In this document: positions 313 to 11,807 of the stretch, piece after piece
Position numbering within the stretch: position 1 is the stretch's first letter
How the letters are laid out: each line of letters opens with the position of its first letter
Source: Candidatus Hydrogenedentes bacterium CG07_land_8_20_14_0_80_42_17
GTDB lineage: Bacteria > UBA8481
Reading direction: 5' to 3'
DNA length: 14,633 nt
Assembly: GCA_002780065.1 (NCBI GenBank)
Contig: PEWQ01000133.1
Location: forward strand, 1 to 14,633
Made by a program: the position numbers and the translations under genes
The notes under the pieces: generated by a model
Told to the model about the DNA's origin: nothing
Seen by the model: only the letters and a program-made list of their open reading frames with translations
The model's database searches: none

Positions 313-2478
313 TTACCACTCTTTCACAAATTCGTACAAAGTCGTTCTCTGAATAGGCTTCATTCCTGTTCGTTTAATAAGTGTAATTAATTTTCCGAGA
401 TCCAATTCATACGAAATTCCCGTCTCACGCACAACCTTCTCTTCCATCAATATTCCTCCGAAATCGTCTGCTCCGTAAAGCAGAGCTGTCTGCGCTAGAT
501 CGGGGCTTTCTGTGACCCATCCGGCTTGAACGTGTTCAAAATTATCCAGAGCTATCCGCGATAACGAAACCATTTTTAAATAATCTACGCCTGTTTCCTG
601 TTCTCTAGAAAGTCTTGTTCTCGCTGATTGAAAACTCCATGGAATAAATGCTGTAAAGCCTCCGGTCTCATCCTGCAATTCTCTCAATCTATCTAAATGT
701 TCAACGCGGTCATCAATCGTCTCGCCTAAACCATATACCATTGTAGCCGTGCTCTTCATTCCAAGTCCATGCACCGCTCTCATCACACTGAGCCATTCCG
801 CTGTTGATATTTTTTTTGGACTAATTTTTTTTCGCACATCATCAACAAGTATCTCTGCTCCGCCGCCTGGAAGCGAATCCAGACCGGCATCTTTTAATCG
901 ACGTAAAGTTTCTTCTATCGTTATTCCTTCTTTTTTTGCCAGAAAAACAATTTCAGTCGGGCTCAAAGAATGATTCCAAATCCGTGTCTCCGATTTTATC
1001 CTTCGGAATAGAGTTTCAAAAAAACTTAGACTCAGGTCGGAGTTCAGTCCGCCCTGAATCAATACTTGAGTCGCTCCGTTATTCTCCGCGTTCTTGATCT
1101 TCTCTAACACCTCATCTTCAGACAAAAGAAACCCATTTTCCGCGCCCGGAGCAACATGAAAGGCGCAAAAGCTGCAGCCTGTCTCACAGATATTCGTCAG
1201 CGAAATATTTCGGTCTATGACGAATGTAGCTCTGTCCGGACAGTTCTTCTGTTTTCGAACAATATTCGCCAGCGAACCGAGTTTTTGAAAAGAAGTCGAA
1301 TTCCACAAATCAATCAATTCATAGTGCGAGATTCTTTTTCCATCCAAAATTTTTCGACGAACACTTTCATAAATATCATTTTTGAATTTAAATTTAACTG
1401 GTGCCTTGCTTTTCTCACTAAAATCTGAGGATACTTTTTCGTCCCAAATAGGTTCATACAAACTATTCACATATCTTGATTCTAATCCTAACTGTTCAAT
1501 AAACCTTTTCATTTCGTCAAGAGATGAAAAACGTCTTTGATTCGAAGCACCCGCGGACAATGCGATTCGCTCGTCAAAACTAGTTCCTCCGATATCATCA
1601 ACCCCCGACCGCATCAATACTTGTAAAAGTTTTCGGTCAAGATAATTCGACAAAGCTCGTATATGAGGAATATTATCCATGAATAATCTGGAAACCGCTG
1701 TCAAACGAAGTATCTCAGTACCAGTAGGACCGATCTCAATATTTAATTTTGTACCATGAGGATGAAACGGAAGTGGAATGAAGGCTTGAAAACCGTGTGT
1801 TCTGTCCTGAAGTTCACGCACTCGTGACATGTGCTCAACAATTTCATCAATATCCTCGACATGTCCGAAAAGCATCGTCGCGTTCGAAAAAATCCCCAAC
1901 TTGTGCGCAGTCTCGTGAATTGAGAGCCACTCTTTGCCACTGATTTTATTACTGCATATCAACTTCCTAACCCGCTCGGAAAAAATTTCCGCGCCGCCGC
2001 CGGGAATCACTCTTAATCCTCTCTCTTTCAATCGAACTAAAACTTCTTCTACGGTTTTTCCTGAGCGTTTGCTGAGAGCGTCAATCTCTACCGCAGTCAG
2101 AGCCTTTATCGGCAGTCCTGGAAAATTTTTTTCAATCCTTACAAATAACTCCTCGTAATAATCTAAATCGCAAAGCTCTGTGACTCCACCAACAATATGT
2201 ATTTCTGTAATGCCGAGCTTTTTCGCATTAATAAGTTTTTCTTCGGCAGAGTTTAAATCAAGATGAAATGCATCTTCAGAATCTAAATCTTTCCAATAAG
2301 CGCAGAGTTTACATTTATTTTCGCAAATATTCGTCGGATTCAAATTCAGGCTATTCGTAAAATATGTTTTCGCACCATGCAGTTTAAATCTGAATGAATC
2401 AGCCTCATACATCAGTTCCGGTAAATATGCCTTTGTCAGCAATTCCGCCGCTTCGTCTTCAAAAATCCTGTTGTTCAT
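313..2478 (-). CDS. mqnE-mqnC: Aminofutalosine synthase / dehypoxanthine futalosine cyclase fusion (MqnE-MqnC)
   Basis: A 721-residue protein with two complete radical SAM enzymes in tandem. The N-terminal half (about 1-360) resembles MqnE, which joins the MqnA product to S-adenosylmethionine to make 6-amino-6-deoxyfutalosine. It has the cluster cysteines C52, C56 and C59, HIVGG at 94-98, PGGGAEIF at 159-166 and FIPLPFHP at 233-240. The C-terminal half (about 366-721) resembles MqnC, which cyclises dehypoxanthine futalosine. It has C431, C435 and C438, IQGGLNSDL, HSLSPTEI, PGGGAEIL and QDETGGFTAFIPW. Each half has the usual single-enzyme length, so nothing is missing. The layout parallels FbiC (CofG-CofH fusion) of F420 synthesis, built from related enzymes, but the motifs and neighbours indicate menaquinone. 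The start ATG overlaps the mqnA stop by 4 bp (ATGA), implying translational coupling. The fusion order is seen directly; the functions follow from the families. Confidence 0.93.
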   Translation of the reverse strand: MNNRIFEDEAAELLTKAYLPELMYEADSFRFKLHGAKTYFTNSLNLNPTNICENKCKLCAYWKDLDSEDAFHLDLNSAEEKLINAKKLGITEIHIVGGVTELCDLDYYEELFVRIEKNFPGLPIKALTAVEIDALSKRSGKTVEEVLVRLKERGLRVIPGGGAEIFSERVRKLICSNKISGKEWLSIHETAHKLGIFSNATMLFGHVEDIDEIVEHMSRVRELQDRTHGFQAFIPLPFHPHGTKLNIEIGPTGTEILRLTAVSRLFMDNIPHIRALSNYLDRKLLQVLMRSGVDDIGGTSFDERIALSAGASNQRRFSSLDEMKRFIEQLGLESRYVNSLYEPIWDEKVSSDFSEKSKAPVKFKFKNDIYESVRRKILDGKRISHYELIDLWNSTSFQKLGSLANIVRKQKNCPDRATFVIDRNISLTNICETGCSFCAFHVAPGAENGFLLSEDEVLEKIKNAENNGATQVLIQGGLNSDLSLSFFETLFRRIKSETRIWNHSLSPTEIVFLAKKEGITIEETLRRLKDAGLDSLPGGGAEILVDDVRKKISPKKISTAEWLSVMRAVHGLGMKSTATMVYGLGETIDDRVEHLDRLRELQDETGGFTAFIPWSFQSARTRLSREQETGVDYLKMVSLSRIALDNFEHVQAGWVTESPDLAQTALLYGADDFGGILMEEKVVRETGISYELDLGKLITLIKRTGMKPIQRTTLYEFVKEW

Positions 2479-3224
2479 CGTGAAAGCTCTTTATTAAAGA
2501 AAGGAATAATCTTCTGTCTGAATTCATTTATCGCTTCGAGTTCATCTTCTCCTAATTCAAAATAAACTGAACGAGTTAAATATTCCAAGCAAAACGACTC
2601 TGACAATCCTAGCTGTTTGGAATATCTGCTTGCAATAGTCTCAATCCTTTTTTTTCCGATTTCCAATGACTCACGAATAATCTTCGCAATTTCTTTTCCG
2701 CGCGAATCGCCATTTTTATAAACCCAAACCGCAAAGACAAACGGCAGACCGGTAAGTTCTTTCCATGCAAATGAAAGGTCTATCTCTTCAATAACTTTTG
2801 GCGCCTTGAAAAATGCTTTGTCGCCTATCACAATCTCAGCATCGTATTCTTCAGTTTCATGATTCACGATATCTGCATCGATTTCAAAAAGTTCACGGGC
2901 AAGTACTTTTACAAGAAGATTTGATGTATGAGAAGCCGGATCTTCACGAATCTTTTTTATGCTCTTCAATGGTTTGTAAAGCCTAAGCAAAACGCTTTTG
3001 ACATTTCCCAATGAAGCAACGCCTATACCGTCTATCAGCTCAACTGAATCATTCGACAAATAATCAACAATCGGAACGAAAGCAGAATCGATTCTATTGT
3101 TTAGAAGCTCATCCATCAGCTTCGAAGGTTCCAAATGAATAAGCGTCACATCACTTCGTTCGCGCAATCCTTCAATCAGAGGCGCTGTATTCAAAAAACT
3201 TGATGCTCCAAATCGCAGTTTCAT
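2475..3224 (-). CDS. mqnA: Chorismate dehydratase MqnA
   Basis: A 249-residue cytosolic enzyme for the first committed step of the futalosine route: dehydration of chorismate to 3-[(1-carboxyvinyl)oxy]benzoate. It has the periplasmic-binding-protein-like fold of the MqnA/MqnD family. Signature stretches are SSFLNTAPL near residue 8, a DSAFVPIVDYL segment near 46-56, GNVKSVLL near 73-80, the S-HTSNLL region near 98-104, and WKELTGLPFVFAVW near 163-176. Its length is typical. It overlaps mqnE/mqnC by 4 bp. Upstream lies a 130-bp gap, the largest inside the operon, which may hold an internal promoter. No strong Shine-Dalgarno sequence precedes the ATG. Confidence 0.95.
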   Translation of the reverse strand: MKLRFGASSFLNTAPLIEGLRERSDVTLIHLEPSKLMDELLNNRIDSAFVPIVDYLSNDSVELIDGIGVASLGNVKSVLLRLYKPLKSIKKIREDPASHTSNLLVKVLARELFEIDADIVNHETEEYDAEIVIGDKAFFKAPKVIEEIDLSFAWKELTGLPFVFAVWVYKNGDSRGKEIAKIIRESLEIGKKRIETIASRYSKQLGLSESFCLEYLTRSVYFELGEDELEAINEFRQKIIPFFNKELSR

Positions 3225-3354: not shown

Positions 3355-4056
3355 TTACTTTCTCGCGATAAATATTGAGACTATTCCTGCCGTCACTTTT
3401 ATAGCTTCAACAACCTTCCAACCGGCTCTACTGATCATTTCTATTATCGCTTTCTGCTCGGGAAATTTTTCAATCGATTTCGCTAAATATTTGTATGCGC
3501 TTCCGTTTGAAAACAATCCTCCAATAATTGGAAGGACGGTTCTATTGTATATTCTATGAAAAATTCTTATCACAAAATTTCGCGGTCTTGTGAGTTCCAG
3601 AACTGTTATGTTTCCCCCAGTTTTTACTACGCGGTAAGTCTCCTCGAATACCGCACTTTGATCCGATATGTTTCTGATGCAAAATCCTGAAATCATTCCG
3701 TCGAAAACTTCTTTTCGAAACGGCATCTTCATAGCATCGCCGACAACAAACTTTACTGTTTTTCCAAATCTTCTCTTCTCAAAATTTTTCTTTGCCGCTC
3801 GAAGCATTGAATAAACCGGATCCAATCCGATTACCCTTGCACTTTCGCATTTTGAAATGAGTTCAAGGCTCATGGCGCCGGTTCCACAGCCTAAATCCAA
3901 GTAGCATTTTCCTTTTGCAGGTTCGAGCAATGTAGCCGTCCTATTTCTCCAATACCTGTCCAATCCCAGAGAAAGTATCGAATTGAGAAGATCATATTTC
4001 GGAACTATCTTCGAAAACATTTCTCTGTTGGTTTTAGCATCCATAAGCGCATTCAT
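3355..4056 (-). CDS. menG: Demethylmenaquinone methyltransferase (MenG/UbiE)
   Basis: A 233-residue SAM-dependent methyltransferase for the last step of menaquinone synthesis, C-methylation of demethylmenaquinone. It carries the UbiE signatures in order: MFSKIVPKYDLLNSILSLG at 13-31, the SAM loop DLGCGTG at 54-60, GLDP at 77-80, GDAMKMPF at 106-113, and FCIRNISD at 125-132. Near the C-terminus it has the LPIIGG...AYKYL..SIEKFP block diagnostic of UbiE/MenG. Length and ends are normal. Six bases separate it from the mqnL stop upstream. Because the route here gives 1,4-dihydroxy-6-naphthoate derivatives, the substrate is inferred to be the menaquinone precursor rather than a ubiquinone precursor. 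Confidence 0.93.
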   Translation of the reverse strand: MNALMDAKTNREMFSKIVPKYDLLNSILSLGLDRYWRNRTATLLEPAKGKCYLDLGCGTGAMSLELISKCESARVIGLDPVYSMLRAAKKNFEKRRFGKTVKFVVGDAMKMPFRKEVFDGMISGFCIRNISDQSAVFEETYRVVKTGGNITVLELTRPRNFVIRIFHRIYNRTVLPIIGGLFSNGSAYKYLAKSIEKFPEQKAIIEMISRAGWKVVEAIKVTAGIVSIFIARK

Positions 4057-4062
4057 ATCTAT

Positions 4063-5820
4063 CTATTTAATTCCATATCGATTCCATTTCTTCTCAACTT
4101 CTTTCACTTTTTCCTGATCAAATTCTACCGGTTTTCTGTATCCTTCTTTCCATCGGGCATCAACCATAATCGGTGTATTCATTAATAACCTGTTTCCTTC
4201 TACCCGGATAGATGCCGGATAAATGTCTCGCTCCGGATCGAATCGCGTAAACCATCCCCAGAGCATAAGCATCGAATCTGCCATAGGCACATCCTGAGAA
4301 ACCAAAACCTGAAATGGAAATTTCGACGTTATCTCATTTCTTGCTAAAGCCTCGCGTAATGAGTGCAGTTCAGATTTGTCGCTCACCTGCGCCATCAAAA
4401 AACCTTCGCCAAGCCGATGTAATTTCAAAATGTCTTTGTGTATTCCGCCAGGCAAATCCTTTGGAGCATTTTTCCGAATCTCATCTCTTCTCAGCGCCAT
4501 CACGATTAATTTCGAGCCCTCATTCATCTTTGGTCCGGTGAAATCGAGTGTGTCTTGAGCAGAAGGAGAAATGATATACAACGAATCTTTCGGATCAAAA
4601 TATCTGAAAACAGATTTGCTTACCTCTTCGAAGTTTCTGACATTTACATCTTGATCCACAACAATCAACACCTTTGTCAAAGATAGTTGCCCTTCACCCA
4701 ATACTGAAAACGCGTGTTTCAATGCTTCATGCGGATAGCGTTCCGAAACTGAAAGAACAGCGAGCGGATGGAATCCGGTTTCAGGATACGCCCAAAAATC
4801 TTTAATGCCGGGCTTCATTAATTTCAAAAGAGGAATTGTCAATTCCTGCAATGCCTCGCCGATAAAATAATCTTCTTGCGGCGGCTTGCCGACTACAGTC
4901 GCGGGATAAATTGCATTCTTTCTGGATAAAATTCTTTCGACTCGGAAAACAGGAAAATCAGCGGAATGAGAATAATGCCCTAGATGGTCTCCAAACGGTC
5001 CTTCTCGCCTTGTGTCGCCTTTTGTCACCGTTCCTTCAAGAACAAATTCAGATGATGCGGGGATTCTATGTCCTGACGGTCTTCGAATTGTTTGAAGCGG
5101 TTCTCCCATGATAAAAGAAGCTAGAATTCTTTCGTCAATTCCTTCCGGCAGAGGCGCAATCGCTGAAAGAGTCAAAGCCGGCGGCCCGCCAAGAATGACG
5201 CTTACAGGCAAAGTGCGCCCTAATCGGACAGCTTTAGCAAAATGAAATCCTCCGCCTTTCTCGATCTGCCAATGCATTCCTGTCGAGGTTGAGTCGAATC
5301 TCTGCATGCGGTAAATTCCAAGATTACCAATTCCAGTTTCAGGATCGATTGTATGAATGAGCGGTAAAGTAAAAAAATATCCTCCATCTAAAGGCCAGCA
5401 CTTCAAACACGGCAAAGTGTTTAAATCCGGTTTGTTGTCTATTCTGTCTAGAACAGCTCCGCGGCTCTTTTCCGAAAAACCGGTTCTCATCACTTTCCAA
5501 ATAGTTCCACGCTCATTCCATATGTTTGATAAAGTCGGCGGCATAAGCCGATGAAAAAGTGAAACCAGCTGTGAGCCGATTTCAGTTGGCGGCCTGGCGA
5601 AAGCGAGTTCGACCCGTTCGCGCGTTCCAAATAGATTCGTCACAACCGGATAATTCGAACCCTTCACATTTTGAAAAAGCAAAGCCGGGCCCCGCTCCGC
5701 CAGCACTCTGTGCTGAATAATCGTTATCTCTTCGCAAGGATCGACTTCCTCACTTATTCTGACTAGAAGTCCCTTTGATTCAAGTTCGGAAATAAAACTT
5801 CTTAAATCTCTGTGAATCAT
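4063..5820 (-). CDS. mqnL: UbiD-family decarboxylase MqnL (menaquinone futalosine route)
   Basis: A 585-residue UbiD-family decarboxylase, predicted to remove the carboxyl group from prenylated 1,4-dihydroxy-6-naphthoate using prenylated FMN. Family hallmarks are the N-terminal RDLRSFISELESKG, the cofactor/active-site region NLGIYRMQ (R171), EFVLEG (E258, E262) and REGPFGDHLGHYS (E273). The C-terminus, LWGWFTRFDPERDIYP...DARWKEG, is the extended tail seen in MqnL proteins, which are longer than E. coli UbiD. Its start overlaps the ubiX stop by 4 bp (ATGA), which fits, since UbiX makes the cofactor this enzyme needs. The MqnL assignment over generic UbiD rests on length, tail and neighbourhood. 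Confidence 0.9.
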   Translation of the reverse strand: MIHRDLRSFISELESKGLLVRISEEVDPCEEITIIQHRVLAERGPALLFQNVKGSNYPVVTNLFGTRERVELAFARPPTEIGSQLVSLFHRLMPPTLSNIWNERGTIWKVMRTGFSEKSRGAVLDRIDNKPDLNTLPCLKCWPLDGGYFFTLPLIHTIDPETGIGNLGIYRMQRFDSTSTGMHWQIEKGGGFHFAKAVRLGRTLPVSVILGGPPALTLSAIAPLPEGIDERILASFIMGEPLQTIRRPSGHRIPASSEFVLEGTVTKGDTRREGPFGDHLGHYSHSADFPVFRVERILSRKNAIYPATVVGKPPQEDYFIGEALQELTIPLLKLMKPGIKDFWAYPETGFHPLAVLSVSERYPHEALKHAFSVLGEGQLSLTKVLIVVDQDVNVRNFEEVSKSVFRYFDPKDSLYIISPSAQDTLDFTGPKMNEGSKLIVMALRRDEIRKNAPKDLPGGIHKDILKLHRLGEGFLMAQVSDKSELHSLREALARNEITSKFPFQVLVSQDVPMADSMLMLWGWFTRFDPERDIYPASIRVEGNRLLMNTPIMVDARWKEGYRKPVEFDQEKVKEVEKKWNRYGIK

Positions 5821-6377
5821 TTCGAGTCTGACCAGTATCTTCCGTTGTCGTCTCCGAATTGCTGTAAAACTCGATCAGCAAATACTTCAAATGTTTCCGA
5901 CATTGTGACAGTATCTGGCGCTCGGCCCCGAAAAAAATAATACGGAATCGAAAGAGGCATTACAACCGCGCCTGCAGATGAAACTTTCGCCGCATTCAAA
6001 AAGTCAATATGAGACCAAGGAGATTCCCGGACACACAAAACCAGTTTTCGCTTTTCTTTCAAATGACAATGCGCGGCTCTCGTTATCAGAGAATCGGCAA
6101 TTCCGTTACTGACCTTCGCAAGTGTATTTGTCGTGCAAGGCAAAATTATCATTCCTAATGTTGGAGTCGAACCTGATGCTATCGGAGCCGCCATATCATC
6201 ATCTTCAAAAACCTTTTCAGCGTTCTTAATGAGCTCTTCATATTTGCACTCTTCTTTTTCGAGAACTATTTTTCCATGTCTGCTAATAATCAGCCATATC
6301 GGCCACGGCGACCTCTTCATCAGCGAAATTGCTGATGCAATTCCTGTCGCCCCTGTTATGCCTAGAACAAGTCTCAT
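5817..6377 (-). CDS. ubiX: Flavin prenyltransferase UbiX (MqnM)
   Basis: A 186-residue flavoprotein that attaches a dimethylallyl group to FMN, producing the prenyl-FMN cofactor of the neighbouring UbiD-type decarboxylase. It shows the family motifs GITGATG at 6-12, LPCTTNTLAKVSNGIADSL in mid-protein, RAAHCHLKEKRKLVL, then CVRESPWSHIDFLNAAKV and a GAVVMPLSIPYYFF segment. Length matches UbiX. Both ends overlap neighbours by 4 bp (mqnB/mqnP upstream, mqnL downstream), so it is embedded in a translationally coupled chain. In futalosine clusters this gene is also called mqnM. Confidence 0.93.
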   Translation of the reverse strand: MRLVLGITGATGIASAISLMKRSPWPIWLIISRHGKIVLEKEECKYEELIKNAEKVFEDDDMAAPIASGSTPTLGMIILPCTTNTLAKVSNGIADSLITRAAHCHLKEKRKLVLCVRESPWSHIDFLNAAKVSSAGAVVMPLSIPYYFFRGRAPDTVTMSETFEVFADRVLQQFGDDNGRYWSDSK

Positions 6378-7801
6378 CTCAAAAGCACCACCAGTGAAGC
6401 AGTGCCGGAAGCAATGGCTGAAAGAGGAAAAAATCTTACAGCTATAGGAATATTTTTATTGCCGGAAAAAATAAAAGTTAAACCTGTCAAAAAAAGCGCA
6501 AGCCCTGCAAGCGCTCCCTGCCCCAATTCAAGCCAGAGCAAAAATAGAAATGCAAATGCGATCGTATGAGAAATCGATGCAATTTTGACTGCATTTTTTT
6601 CTCCAAATTTTACCGGCAGACTTTTTACACCGGTAATCCTATCGGAAGTTATATCCATAATAGAGTAGATGATATCAAATCCGCTCATCCAAAAAAATGT
6701 GAAACCGGCGAGATAAATTATATCAGAGTTCAAAGGCAAACTCTTCGAAGTCGCAACATAGGCTCCAAGCGGCGCTAATGCCAGGCACAAGCCGATTCCG
6801 AAATGACATAAACTTGTGAATCGCTTGAGCAGAGAATAAAGCGCAAGCGGAATTATCGGAACAATCGAAAGCTTCAGACATAAATTACCGAGTGCGGCGC
6901 ATCCCGCGAAATATGCAATCAAACCAAATAGCGCCGCGAACATTGCAGATTTAGTTGAGACTTTTCCTGCAGGAAGTTCTCTTCGCCATGTCCTCGGATT
7001 CTTCGCGTCGAGATCTTTATCGAGAATTCTATTCAATGTCATTCCAAAAGTCCGTGCTCCAACTCCGACTAAGATAATAAGCATCAGCTCATTAAATTTT
7101 GGCTCAACATGAGCTCCAAGCCACGCGCCGGCAAAAAGCAACGGGAGGCTGAATAACGTATGTTCGAGCCGCGTTAATTTGTGCCAGCGTTGAATTATGT
7201 TGTCTTGAGTTTCTATGAGCTCGCCAAGTCTTTCATAAATAATCGAGGCAAGCTTTTCTGAAACGATTGGCAGATTTTTTTTCAATAATTTTTTTTCGCC
7301 GTCAGAGGCATGGTCAGTCACTCCTTTAATGATATAACATCCGGCATTCTTCTCTTTGCACACTGCCGCTACCGCGAATCCTTCCATATCAACAAGCTGA
7401 ACCGAAAATGATAACTCTCTTCTTTTCGAATCGTCAAAAAGTCCTTCAGAAATAGAAGCTAATCTTGATTCTTCAAGCAAAGGCCATGACTCGATATTTA
7501 TCGCGCAACTTTTCTCTTCAGCATTAATTACGTTCACAACTGTAAAGCAATCTCCGATGGAATAGGACTCATTCAACGCTCCGGCAACACCGGCATTGAT
7601 TATAGTTTTGACTCCGTAATGTTCGATCAAGAGCCTGCATCTTTCTTCAGCCGCTCGTAATCCCATACCGGAAACAGCAACTAAAAATTTTTCGCCTTTT
7701 ATGAAAAAACAATAAAGGTTTTTTTCGTCTTCAGAAGTCGCATTTACCTTCAACAAGAACGGCTGAGCCTCTTCATAAGTTGCAAATATAATTGCTATCA
7801 A
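6374..7801 (-). CDS. mqnB-mqnP: Futalosine nucleosidase / naphthoate prenyltransferase fusion (MqnB-MqnP)
   Basis: A 475-residue two-domain protein. Residues 1 to about 195 form an MTAN/MqnB-type nucleosidase: an acidic FATYEEA near 6-12, GVAGAL near 71-76, VDMEG (D138, E140) and the purine-binding VTDHASD (D163). It should cleave futalosine or aminofutalosine to dehypoxanthine futalosine. From about 205 to the end is a UbiA-family membrane prenyltransferase with RLEHTLFSLP at 211-220, the first Asp-rich motif NRILDKDLD at 257-265 followed by NPRT, and the second motif DITSDRITG with D383 and D387. It then has several hydrophobic segments typical of MqnP. The linker is only about ten residues. 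The start is TTG, one base after the mqnD stop; it is preferred because the nucleosidase N-terminus begins there and no ATG precedes it. The fusion tethers a normally soluble enzyme to the membrane and joins two non-adjacent steps. Confidence 0.9.
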   Translation of the reverse strand: MIAIIFATYEEAQPFLLKVNATSEDEKNLYCFFIKGEKFLVAVSGMGLRAAEERCRLLIEHYGVKTIINAGVAGALNESYSIGDCFTVVNVINAEEKSCAINIESWPLLEESRLASISEGLFDDSKRRELSFSVQLVDMEGFAVAAVCKEKNAGCYIIKGVTDHASDGEKKLLKKNLPIVSEKLASIIYERLGELIETQDNIIQRWHKLTRLEHTLFSLPLLFAGAWLGAHVEPKFNELMLIILVGVGARTFGMTLNRILDKDLDAKNPRTWRRELPAGKVSTKSAMFAALFGLIAYFAGCAALGNLCLKLSIVPIIPLALYSLLKRFTSLCHFGIGLCLALAPLGAYVATSKSLPLNSDIIYLAGFTFFWMSGFDIIYSIMDITSDRITGVKSLPVKFGEKNAVKIASISHTIAFAFLFLLWLELGQGALAGLALFLTGLTFIFSGNKNIPIAVRFFPLSAIASGTASLVVLLR

Positions 7802-7802
7802 T

Positions 7803-8603
7803 TTATTTTAATAAACCTCGCGCCTGCATTAATTCTCCCAGTTTTTCAATTGCCGCCAGTCCGCTAGAACTTATCTCGAATGATTCACCCGTCACGAAGG
7901 TTTCAATATGCAATTTCAATATCTTCTCATCAATAGAGACTGAATACTTCTTAGCAATTTTCATAACTGCTTTCGGAGATGACTTAGCCGACTCTAGTGA
8001 GTGTAAAATTGTGTCTTCAATCTTCTCGATCGTTTCTTTGCTAAACTTTTTGTCAGCAAAAATTCCAGCCAGCGGTACAGGCAAGCCTGTCTCTTCCTCC
8101 CACCATTCTCCCAAATCTATAATTTTTATGAGACCCATCTCTTTAAACAAAAATCGTTCCTCATGAATAAGTATTCCCATATCAGCTTCGCCGGAAATAA
8201 CTTTATCAGCAACACAATCGTAAGAAACGATTATGGGTTCAATCTCAGTTCTGTGCCACAACCTGAAGAGCGCTTCCGCAGTTGTGTCTATGCCGGGAAT
8301 TGCAATTCGAAGCTTTCCTGAACTCGTTTTAATATTTTTTTTGGCAACTACAAGCGGACCGCATCCAAAACCAATTGCCGCTCCCCTTTTCAACAGAGTG
8401 TAATTACTCTTGACTCTGAACCACGCAGGAAAAGAAAGTTTTGTCACATCGAATTTTTTCTGCCTCGCAAAGATATTCAAATCGCTTATGTCATGAATAT
8501 GCGGCTCGAATTCTATCTGCACTCCGAGTTTATTCTCAATAAATCTGTAAAAGATAAAGACATCGTTTGGACATGGAGAAAAAGCAACTGAAATATTCAT
8601 CAT
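7803..8603 (-). CDS. mqnD: 1,4-dihydroxy-6-naphthoate synthase MqnD
   Basis: A 266-residue enzyme that converts cyclic dehypoxanthine futalosine to 1,4-dihydroxy-6-naphthoate. Signature motifs are FSPCPNDVFIF near 8-18, FDVTKLSFPAWF near 51-62, GCGPLVV near 80-86, IPGIDTTAEALFRL near 102-115, IHEERF (H147, E148) and DLGEWWEEETGLPVPL at 163-178. The fold is shared with MqnA. Two in-frame ATGs (8603 and 8600) lie within a heptanucleotide repeat carrying six ATGs over two frames; the protein homology begins at the last pair. The gene follows hpt by 14 bp, and its stop is one base from the TTG of mqnB/mqnP. Confidence 0.94.
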   Translation of the reverse strand: MMNISVAFSPCPNDVFIFYRFIENKLGVQIEFEPHIHDISDLNIFARQKKFDVTKLSFPAWFRVKSNYTLLKRGAAIGFGCGPLVVAKKNIKTSSGKLRIAIPGIDTTAEALFRLWHRTEIEPIIVSYDCVADKVISGEADMGILIHEERFLFKEMGLIKIIDLGEWWEEETGLPVPLAGIFADKKFSKETIEKIEDTILHSLESAKSSPKAVMKIAKKYSVSIDEKILKLHIETFVTGESFEISSSGLAAIEKLGELMQARGLLK

Positions 8604-8617: not shown

Positions 8618-9184
8618 TTATTTCATATGTTTCTTCGGCACCATGATGAACGGAAGATTGCGATACTGATCTTTCCAATCCAGGCCGTAACCTACAACAA
8701 ATTTGTTCTCGAGAGTGAATCCGACATAATCGACTGTGACAGGCACTTTTCTTGTTTCCGGCTTATCCAGAAGAGAACAAATTTTCACCGACTCAGGATT
8801 TCTTGCCTCAATAATCTGTTTCAGATATGCCCACGTGAGTCCTGTATCCACAACGTCCTCGACAACAAGAACATGTTTCGACTCAACAGGTGCCGCGAGA
8901 TCTTTCATGATTCTGACCACGCCTGATGACTTCGTAAGGTGGCCGTAAGAAGATACCGAAATAAAATCTATCTCCAAAGGAAGATGTATCTCGCGCATAA
9001 GGTCGGCAAGAAATACTGACGCGCCCCGCAAAATAGCAACCAATAACAAATTCTTGTCGTGATAATCTTCAGTTATTTTTTTCCCCAATTTCTTGACGGC
9101 TTCTTGAATTTCATCCGAAGTCAAAACAACTTCTCCGACAATTTCATCAGCCCATCCGGATCGTTCTCTCAGTTCAGCTGTCAC
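8618..9184 (-). CDS. hpt: Hypoxanthine phosphoribosyltransferase
   Basis: A 188-residue purine salvage enzyme that makes IMP (and usually GMP) from hypoxanthine/guanine and PRPP. It shows AILRGASVFLADLMR at 50-64, the PRPP loop VVEDVVDTGLT at 107-117, and the C-terminal DWKDQYRNLPFI at 169-180. I chose the GTG at 9184 because a GAGGAG ribosome-binding site lies immediately after the tilS stop, 10 bases upstream, and because the length then matches the family. A TTG two codons earlier (9190) is also possible. The frame stays open to 9271 but that would run into tilS. The tilS-hpt pairing is common in bacteria. Here it leads into menaquinone genes whose nucleosidase releases a purine base. Confidence 0.93.
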   Translation of the reverse strand: MTAELRERSGWADEIVGEVVLTSDEIQEAVKKLGKKITEDYHDKNLLLVAILRGASVFLADLMREIHLPLEIDFISVSSYGHLTKSSGVVRIMKDLAAPVESKHVLVVEDVVDTGLTWAYLKQIIEARNPESVKICSLLDKPETRKVPVTVDYVGFTLENKFVVGYGLDWKDQYRNLPFIMVPKKHMK

Positions 9185-9200
9185 AAGCAATAAACTCCTC

Positions 9201-10625
9201 TTACGCAATCTCTTTCGAGTCATTCGGTAAACCGTCGGAATGAACCTCGATATGCAAAATCTCTTCTGCATGTTTCGGCACTCTGGTTCGCTCAGCCTGC
9301 TTCACTCCGATTATCCAGAGCACTCCTTCATCATCGCACAGAAGAGGCCATAAGTCACGTTCAAGCAAAGGTATCTTTTCATCGATAAAAATATCCTGCA
9401 GCTTTTTTGTGCCGGTCATTCCAAAAGGCTGAAGCCTGTCTCCCTGCAAACGAGTGCGCACAATTAATCTTCCTACAACGCTTTCCTCAGAGATATTTGC
9501 GCTCGCGGCCCATGGCTTTTGCAAATCCTTGGGGCGAATTTCAGAACGTTTTAATTCAGCAATGTCTTTTCGGTATTCTTTTTTTTTAACAGAAATTTTT
9601 AATCCCATAGAAGGAATTATTGTCTCGCCTAAATCAGATAAAGCGCTTTCATTAATCGAAAGGCAAAGTCCTTGAATCGGCCGTCCTATTGTCAGCCTGT
9701 CTTCGTTTGAATGGTTTATCCAAACAGAAACTCCTTCTGAGAGGTCGCACCTTCCGCCTATTGCAATTATATCCTCTATGCTTTCAATTACATCCCGCGC
9801 AGGAAAAATTCCAATACGATTTAAAATTGAATGAATGCATCTCGATCGTAACGCAGGATGAAGTTCTTTTATAATTCTCAATGGAACCGATATCTTTTCG
9901 TCTTCCATGCTCCACAAATGCAGTTCTCGTTCTACAATTGAATAAAAAAAATCTTCGTCCAGTTTTGCCGACTCAGCTAACGAATTTAAGCTCCCGATAA
10001 TATCGCATTGAGAATGTTCTATGAGGAAAGGCAAAATCTGATTTCTAATTCGATTTCTGAAAAACATATCTGAAAGATTCGAGCTGTCTTCCCGATATTC
10101 CAGATTCCGGTTGGAAATATATCTCATAATGTCGGTGCGGCGCACGTCAATGAGCGGCCTTAAAAAAACAAATCCTTCCGCATCCCTTATTGAAGGAATT
10201 CCCTTCATGCCGTGTATTCCTGTCCCGCGCATTATCCGAAAAAGCACGGTCTCAGCCTGATCATTCGCAGTGTGCGCGGTCAAAATCGCGTTCAATTTCA
10301 GTCGCTTCGCGTTTCGTTCAAAAAAATCATATCTAGCGCGCCTTAGTTTATTCTCAGATATCTCTTTTCCTTCTTTCTGCATACGTTCAATGACACATTC
10401 CACTCCCAAAGACTTTGCAAACTCTTCAACAAATTTTGCGTCATCGCCAGACTCAGGTCGAACCGCATGATCGAAATGCAATGCAAAAACGGAGTAATCA
10501 TTGAGACTGCATACAGCGTCGAGAAGCGTAATAGAATCCGCTCCGCCGGATACACCTATTCCTATCCTTTTTCCAATAAGATTTTTTATTAAGAATTCGC
10601 GAACATGCTCGACAATGCCCTTCAT
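9201..10625 (-). CDS. tilS: tRNA(Ile)-lysidine synthase TilS
   Basis: A 474-residue ATP-dependent enzyme that converts the wobble C34 of the CAU-anticodon isoleucine tRNA to lysidine, an essential modification for AUA decoding. The N-terminal PP-loop reads GVSGGADS at 24-31. It is followed by FALHFDHAVR, TAHTANDQAETVLFRIMRGTGIHGMKGIP, LIDVRRTDI and NRIRNQILPFL, all typical of TilS. The C-terminal domain has RLQPFGMTGTKKLQDIFIDEKIPLLERDLWPLL, the usual tRNA-binding tail. Length is typical. It is the first gene of the leftward run and has a good -10 element nearly touching its start codon. Confidence 0.95.
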   Translation of the reverse strand: MKGIVEHVREFLIKNLIGKRIGIGVSGGADSITLLDAVCSLNDYSVFALHFDHAVRPESGDDAKFVEEFAKSLGVECVIERMQKEGKEISENKLRRARYDFFERNAKRLKLNAILTAHTANDQAETVLFRIMRGTGIHGMKGIPSIRDAEGFVFLRPLIDVRRTDIMRYISNRNLEYREDSSNLSDMFFRNRIRNQILPFLIEHSQCDIIGSLNSLAESAKLDEDFFYSIVERELHLWSMEDEKISVPLRIIKELHPALRSRCIHSILNRIGIFPARDVIESIEDIIAIGGRCDLSEGVSVWINHSNEDRLTIGRPIQGLCLSINESALSDLGETIIPSMGLKISVKKKEYRKDIAELKRSEIRPKDLQKPWAASANISEESVVGRLIVRTRLQGDRLQPFGMTGTKKLQDIFIDEKIPLLERDLWPLLCDDEGVLWIIGVKQAERTRVPKHAEEILHIEVHSDGLPNDSKEIA

Positions 10626-10661: not shown

Positions 10662-10720
10662 AACTTTCCAAGAAAACAATTTGCCTTTTGAAAATGCGTA
10701 CAAAGAATTATCATAAGATT

Positions 10721-11142
10721 ATGAAAAAATTAATTGCAATTTTATTCTTTTTTTTCGTGCTGGTGATTTTTTCTCTCAGCTACATGACCGTAAAAAAACA
10801 GAAGAATACTTACACCTACTATACAATGGGAACCATTTTATCATTCGATGTGATTGCGGATGAAAAAATTGCAGTGCCGGCTGTCTCAAAAGCATATTCC
10901 GAGATTCAAAGAATCAACGATGAGTTTTCAAATTACTCCGAATCTAGTTCTGTCAGCATTCTAAATAATTCCGGCAAGAAAGGGCATGTGGTTTCAAATG
11001 AATTTATTTCTATTCTCGAGCGCTCTCGAGAAATGTCGAAAATCACAAACGGCTTGTTTGATATTACCGTTTCGCCGTTAGTCAAAATTTGGGGGTTTTA
11101 TAGGCACAAAGGCAGAGTTCCTTCTGATACTGAAATTAATTT
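10721..11142 (+). pseudogene. apbE remnant (5' part of FAD:protein FMN transferase)
   Basis: Only the N-terminal 140 or so residues of an ApbE protein remain, where about 300-350 is usual. ApbE attaches FMN covalently to subunits such as RnfD and RnfG. The remnant has a basic start and a hydrophobic export segment (IAILFFFFVLVIFSLSYM, no lipobox cysteine). It then shows the family stretches YYTMGTILSFDV, INDEFSNYSESSSVSILN, ITNGLFDITVSPLVKIWGF and VPSDTEIN. The protein sequence then stops resembling ApbE and hits TAG at 11156; the FAD-binding and catalytic C-terminal half is gone. An in-frame ATG at 10694 could also be the original start. The loss coincides with the start of rnfC-like sequence in another frame, indicating a deletion junction near 11140. 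Confidence 0.85.
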
Positions 11143-11384
11143 CACGATGCAATTGTAGAAGGAAAACCATTTTACGAAAGAATTCTAACAGTAGCCGGCA
11201 AAGTAAAAGAACCTAAAAATTTGAAAGTGAGAATTGGAACTCTCGTCTCCGAATTAATAGAGCATTGCGGAGGCGTATCTGAAAATGTCGGCAAAATAAT
11301 TTTAGGCGGGCCTATGATGGGAGTCGCAGTTTCGAAAACAGATATACCGGTGATAAAAGGAACGTCGGGTGTCTTGCTTATGGA
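11143..11384 (+). pseudogene. rnfC remnant (middle part)
   Basis: About 80 codons of an RnfC-like protein, the NADH-side subunit of the Rnf ion-pumping ferredoxin:NAD oxidoreductase. It reads through HDAIVEGKPFYERILTVAG, VRIGTLVSELIEHCGG, ILGGPMMGVAV and PVIKGTSGVLL. The last two are the characteristic GGPMMG and K-TSG region just before the iron-sulfur cluster cysteines. Neither the N-terminal NADH/FMN-binding region nor the CxxCxxC clusters are present. Intact RnfC is roughly 400-450 residues, so over 80 percent is missing. The frame differs from the apbE piece before it and from the rnfD piece after it. Boundaries are estimates within about 10 bp. Confidence 0.83.
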
Positions 11385-11565
11385 TTCAAAACGCCAATCA
11401 GAATTTCCGACGGCAGTGCGGCGCTCACAGGACTCCTTATGGCATATTGTCTTCCGCCTGACATTCCGATCTAGCAAATAGGAGTCGGATCATTTTTTGC
11501 CATTTTCATTACAAAAGAATGTTTCGGCGGAATTGGAAACAACATCTTTAATCCTGCATTCGGAG
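11385..11565 (+). pseudogene. rnfD remnant (middle part) with in-frame TAG
   Basis: About 60 codons of an RnfD-like membrane subunit: KTPIRISDGSAALTGLLMAYCLPPDIPI, a stop codon, then QIGVGSFFAIFITKE and CFGGIGNNIFNPA. The DGSA-TGLL and FGG-GN-FNPA segments are hallmarks of RnfD/NqrB. The TAG at 11472-11474 falls where family members commonly carry tryptophan (PP--P-W), so a TGG to TAG nonsense change is the simplest reading. All other transmembrane segments and the flavinylation-site region are absent. The rnfG, E, A and B genes expected downstream are also missing. Confidence 0.82.
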
Positions 11566-11807
11566 CAAAAATCAACGATAAGGTTCTCGTGACGTTTAAA
11601 TATTCAACTTTAAATTCATCAGTTATCTTTTTCGGTATTCCTACGCTTCTTATTATCATCGGGATTTTTGGAGGTCAAATCTTTTTATCTTCTGTAATTT
11701 TCGGTCTTTTTTTCAGCATAGTTTTAATAGTCGGCTATCTATTTGCTGTAAAATGTTTTTTGCATAACTACACTCCAAAAATAAAAAAAGTAATCGAATT
11801 GAATTAA
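11566..11807 (+). pseudogene. rseC remnant (3' part)
   Basis: The last 80 or so codons of a protein resembling the RseC/SoxR-reducing-system family (PF04246), which often accompanies rnf operons. It shows AKINDKVLV, then two hydrophobic segments (FFGIPTLLIIIGIFGG and a VIFGLFFSIVLIVGYLFAV segment) and a short basic-rich tail ending TPKIKKVIELN. The N-terminal cysteine-rich part is missing. The reading frame continues unbroken from the rnfD piece, so the deletion that joined them happened to be in phase. A short membrane peptide could in principle be made from the ATG-less open frame, but no ribosome-binding site or start supports it. Confidence 0.65.

Follow-up and report, generated by a model that had tools for sequence, protein, structure and literature searches.

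The mqnB-mqnP gene of the window (the whole stretch of 14,633 nucleotides analysed here) specifies a nucleosidase and a membrane prenyltransferase in one polypeptide of 475 amino acids (6374..7801, minus strand). The reading frame begins with TTG and is unbroken, and contains, in this order, the Pfam domains PNP_UDP_1 (70.3 bits; cut-off 25.1) and UbiA (150.5 bits; cut-off 34.2; residues 219-445). We confirm that this is a genuine single-frame nucleosidase-prenyltransferase fusion. The initial annotation had described a soluble nucleosidase with its catalytic acidic residues joined to a complete UbiA-type prenyltransferase, and both domains were recovered, with E11, E140 and D163 in alignment. 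A frameshift or stop near codon 200 in the raw reads was given there as a refuting observation; the window's sequence has neither, and full-length fused relatives occur elsewhere. We are fairly confident that the protein is a bifunctional (amino)futalosine nucleosidase/naphthoate prenyltransferase, formed by loss of a stop codon, probably acquired by transfer and held at the cytosolic face of the membrane, by the steps proposed below.

The fusion is part of a tightly packed operon on the minus strand for the futalosine pathway, the alternative route to menaquinone (vitamin K2), in which most joints show one-base spacing or 4-nt overlaps. The stop of mqnD (7803..8603; VitK2_biosynth) ends one base before the start codon of the fusion, while the stop of the latter shares 4 nt with a gene for a ubiX-type flavin prenyltransferase (5817..6377; MqnM role). 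This overlaps by 4 nt the gene for a ubiD-type decarboxylase (4063..5820; MqnL role), which scores 473.1 bits with TIGR03701, just below the cut-off of 495.9. These are followed by a ubiE/menG methyltransferase (3355..4056; TIGR01934, over cut-off), chorismate dehydratase, MqnA (2475..3224; VitK2_biosynth), and, overlapping mqnA by 4 nt, an mqnE-mqnC gene for a protein of 721 aa (313..2478). This companion fusion, which had also been reported initially, is real, with TIGR03700 and TIGR03699 both over cut-off. Directly upstream of mqnD lies a hypoxanthine phosphoribosyltransferase gene (8618-9271). Farther away (10688-11700) the genes are broken, an ApbE-like frame stopping early and being followed by RnfC- and RnfD-like pieces in shifting frames, as a result of either decay or misassembly.

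The nucleosidase domain (residues 1-195; 7217..7801) is MTAN/MqnB-like. The structure predicted for the isolated domain (pLDDT 77.6) matches MTAN 4jwt with a Z of 22.6 (rmsd 2.4, 193 residues) and Chlamydia CT263 with a Z of 20.8, the identities to the latter (26-28%) being the highest among the matches listed. The fold and the catalytic Glu/Glu/Asp are common to this domain, MqnB, CT263 and the MTANs of Helicobacter and Campylobacter. E11 (7769..7771), M139-E140 (7382..7387) and D163 (7313..7315) align with the catalytic Glu12, the ribose-binding Met173-Glu174 and the catalytic Asp197, respectively, of MTAN in the numbering of the E. coli enzyme; E11, M139-E140-G141 and D163 are invariant in all 21 fused proteins considered below. 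CT263 is short like the fusion's nucleosidase, and its alignment extends across almost all of the domain; compared with MTAN, the domain lacks about 30 residues. Whereas CT263, MqnB and the MTANs named above are free soluble proteins, this nucleosidase is joined to a membrane enzyme. The domain stays under the curated cut-off in all nucleosidase models; with TIGR03664 (MqnB/futalosine hydrolase) it scores, in isolation, 50.6 bits against 124.7. The label MqnB of the initial annotation is therefore kept as a name by role, for a nucleosidase inside a futalosine operon, and not on score; it is the operon that suggests an (amino)futalosine nucleosidase function for this domain.

Chlamydia CT263 is held to act on aminofutalosine, and the nucleosidase half may do so as well, instead of on futalosine. 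An adenosine-deaminase-type deaminase is present in 11 of 17 genomes, that of the window included, and absent from the other six, in a search restricted to PF00962. Should the nucleosidase use futalosine, the hypoxanthine phosphoribosyltransferase encoded upstream of mqnD could salvage the hypoxanthine released, although tilS and hpt commonly occur as a pair in any case. Both the aminofutalosine and the futalosine routes are set out in PMC3937554.

The UbiA/MqnP-type membrane prenyltransferase occupies residues 208-475 (6377..7180). It exceeds the curated cut-off of TIGR01475 (UbiA-like polyprenyltransferase; 223.5 bits against 180.8), and the fold predicted for it is close to that of the Aeropyrum UbiA homologue 4od4 (TM 0.83). 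Both Asp-rich motifs, N257-R-x-x-D261-x-x-x-D265 (7007..7033) and D383-x-x-x-D387 (6641..6655), are present, and residues N257, R258, D261, D265, D383 and D387 are unchanged in 21/21 fused proteins. Three MqnP models (NF041584, NF041585 and NF041586) gave 162.6-182.9 bits, under their curated cut-offs of 375-430, the best score of 182.9 standing against a cut-off of 420; these look like narrow lineage-specific models. We assign the MqnP role because the fusion is the sole UbiA match in the window's genome, which has a full mqn operon. MqnP was proposed as the UbiA-like prenyltransferase of the futalosine pathway in PMC4746308. The UbiA fold, the two Asp motifs and the ubiX and ubiD neighbours of MqnP are all found with the fusion's half; no fusion was found in the other sampled lineages, whereas here an N-terminal enzyme domain is attached.

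The two halves are separated by a short linker, as the initial annotation had it (residues about 196-207; 7181..7216). Conserved nucleosidase and UbiA positions are 27 residues apart in the window and 26-43 apart across the 21 fused proteins, and among relatives the linker varies in length and sequence. A full-length prediction with four sequences modelled the UbiA half well and the nucleosidase half poorly (pLDDT mostly <50), so that the relative placement of the domains cannot be read from it.

Far from being a peculiarity of this window, the fusion is a recurrent and conserved architecture, shared with some 20 further species of which most are Kiritimatiellia-type bacteria. A scan of approximately 85,000 species' genomes, based on exact peptide patterns and therefore undercounting fusions, revealed three other full-length copies: in Pontiellaceae bacterium B12219 (45% identity), Lentisphaerae bacterium RIFOXYC12_FULL_60_16 (42%) and Kiritimatiellaceae isolate SAT197 (41%). 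Sampling 387 genomes of the phylum containing the first of these yielded 19 fused copies, which together with those of RIFOXYC12 and the window make up the set of 21. Among 386 genomes drawn across the domain, 155 gave matches, nearly all to UbiA alone, and none held a further fusion. Long UbiA frames (416-809 aa) in ten other lineages were considered as fusions and rejected, the nucleosidase being absent from all of them. Related genomes manage without the fusion, which is thus not essential to the pathway.

The usual gene order in the carriers is mqnD, fusion, ubiX, (ubiD), (ubiE), mqnA, and mqnE-mqnC adjoins the operon in nine of them besides the window. In Pontiella-type clusters (L095-L099, L121, L123) ubiX and ubiE have no close ubiD between them, and mqnE-mqnC is located elsewhere; at another locus (L101) a distant UbiD relative lies on the opposite strand. 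The Pontiella type strains produce menaquinones MK-6 to MK-9 (PMC7356697), so the product of the pathway is made in the family of carrier B12219.

The MqnE-MqnC fusion likewise places two futalosine-pathway enzymes in one chain, in the same operon of the window and in an overlapping set of species. It is present in every carrier of mqnB-mqnP except G420, and three relatives without the mqnB-mqnP fusion (G309, G402 and G160) have separate mqnE and mqnC. Unlike MqnB-MqnP it combines two homologous radical-SAM enzymes, both soluble, whose steps flank that of MqnB in the pathway. A third operon fusion was observed in two of the mqnB-mqnP carriers, where the ubiE methyltransferase and mqnA share one open frame of 486 aa (L110:3163-4620, G335) or 507 aa (L111:10698-12218, G201). 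A second MqnC match in the window's genome (G000:C94) was rejected as a menaquinone gene because of its CofG-like and LLM-type neighbours, and most likely belongs to F420 cofG-cofH. With genes for CofG- and CofH-like proteins next to an LLM-type oxidoreductase in this region (L126:3-2218), the window's organism probably makes coenzyme F420.

Could the single frame be an error, or the single chain an illusion? The window comes from a draft genome of 207 contigs, 87% complete, with broken genes nearby (10.7-11.7 kb), in which two adjacent genes might have been joined during sequencing or assembly. The same full-length fusion in twenty other genomes, on a 4.1-Mb contig in one of them, rules out an artefact or frameshift of this kind, to which we give practically no credence. 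Both halves are moreover under purifying selection, with dN/dS values of about 0.09 (nucleosidase) and 0.13 (UbiA) in a sample of nine close relatives for which dS is partly saturated. Retention in some 20 other species indicates that the fusion is real and, as judged from these sequences, very likely functional. We think it very unlikely that two separate proteins exist in the cell, through cleavage of the chain or an internal start for the UbiA half. The variable linker would suit such an arrangement, as would the GTG or ATG codons near the UbiA start in some relatives, and cleavage is possible on sequence; but no internal start from which a separate UbiA could be made is conserved among the fused relatives. 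The window's linker is without in-frame ATG, GTG or TTG. Ahead of the UbiA domain the window has a single internal TTG, codon 173, which falls within the nucleosidase; in SAT197 (G062) there is none.

It is also unlikely, if somewhat less so, that the N-terminal half is a housekeeping MTA/SAH nucleosidase which became attached to MqnP by chance and works outside the pathway. Its fold and best models are MTAN-like, and the MTANs of some species serve both roles; in many genomes, however, the gene is flanked by mqnD and ubiX within the mqn operon. The window's genome has, besides, a separate MTA phosphorylase-like protein, and a further MqnB-like protein was not found in it. By sequence, its three other PNP_UDP_1 proteins read as a purine nucleoside phosphorylase, this MTA phosphorylase and a protein resembling uridine phosphorylase. 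In G062 the fusion is the sole PNP_UDP_1 match, and a double role is therefore possible in that genome. Neither a free MqnB or MTAN nor a second UbiA was found in the window's genome (87% complete, 207 contigs), which leaves the fusion as the sole candidate found for both steps of the pathway.

As to its origin, the UbiA halves of the 21 fused proteins and two unfused ones (G309 and G402) group in a single clade (100/99); the 28 stand-alone UbiA proteins, with that of the window's same-order relative G001 among them, fall outside it. Topology tests on this tree did not reject a single origin of the fusion (p 0.345) and did reject grouping of the window with G001 (p 0.0003); they did not tell a placement of the window inside the other carriers from one beside them (p 0.327). 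The composition of the contig (GC 0.413 and tetranucleotide profile) fits the rest of the window's genome and not the Kiritimatiellia loci, which rules out a mis-binned contig. With the grouping with G001 rejected and the contig native in composition, an old horizontal transfer probably brought the operon into the lineage of the window.

Unfused overlapping gene pairs in relatives offer a possible route to the fusion. G760 has an operon of this kind in which every gene stands alone, the nucleosidase stop and the UbiA start overlapping as TTGA, so that a one-base indel would fuse the two. G309 has the nucleosidase and UbiA genes side by side in the same frame, 38 codons apart. We propose that mqnB and mqnP, as neighbours that overlapped within one operon, lost the intervening stop, probably once, in or near Kiritimatiellia. 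One genome (G160) contains a stand-alone nucleosidase (L114:4820-5461) that shares 73% identity with the nucleosidase of the RIFOXYC12 fusion; no UbiA was found in this genome, though mqnE and mqnC are present, and a secondary split or missing sequence is possible.

In the bifunctional protein, the N-terminal domain would take aminofutalosine or futalosine and remove its purine base to give dehypoxanthinyl futalosine, the substrate of MqnC, and the UbiA-type domain would provide the naphthoate that MqnD makes at a later step with its polyprenyl chain. In structures of UbiA, transmembrane helix 2 is followed by the first Asp-rich loop, which lies on the cytosolic side; the most positively charged loop of the window's UbiA half is that at 261-282. 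The N-terminus would then be on the same side, and the nucleosidase anchored at the membrane's cytosolic face, where its soluble partners are. The order of the pathway is MqnA, MqnE, (deaminase), MqnB, MqnC, MqnD, MqnP, MqnL and MenG. That of MqnP and MqnL was left unsettled in PMC4746308. Since MqnC and MqnD act between MqnB and MqnP, direct channelling between the two sites of the fusion is not expected. The earlier suggestion that an early step is pinned to the membrane follows from the topology, but the steps that are fused are not consecutive. Likely effects would be equal dosage and co-localisation with the neighbouring soluble enzymes rather than direct hand-over. More tentatively, and with considerable doubt on our part, MqnB-MqnP and MqnE-MqnC might build a membrane-anchored futalosine metabolon, in which the membrane-held nucleosidase docks MqnE-MqnC and the intermediates from E to B to C are retained near MqnD and MqnP.

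Both enzymes, and the fusing of neighbouring operon genes, were already known. In line with the initial annotation, we found no published description of the MqnB-MqnP fusion in the open-access literature, the scope of our search. In annotated genomes such proteins are likely to be named for one half only. The benefit to the cell may possibly be the equal dosage and co-localisation of a modest reading, or the membrane metabolon of a bold one. The early soluble and late membrane steps of the futalosine pathway have so far been studied as separate enzymes, and a chain that joins one early and one late step, accompanied by a second fusion on the flanking steps, provides a natural handle on the question of a possible membrane organisation of this pathway.
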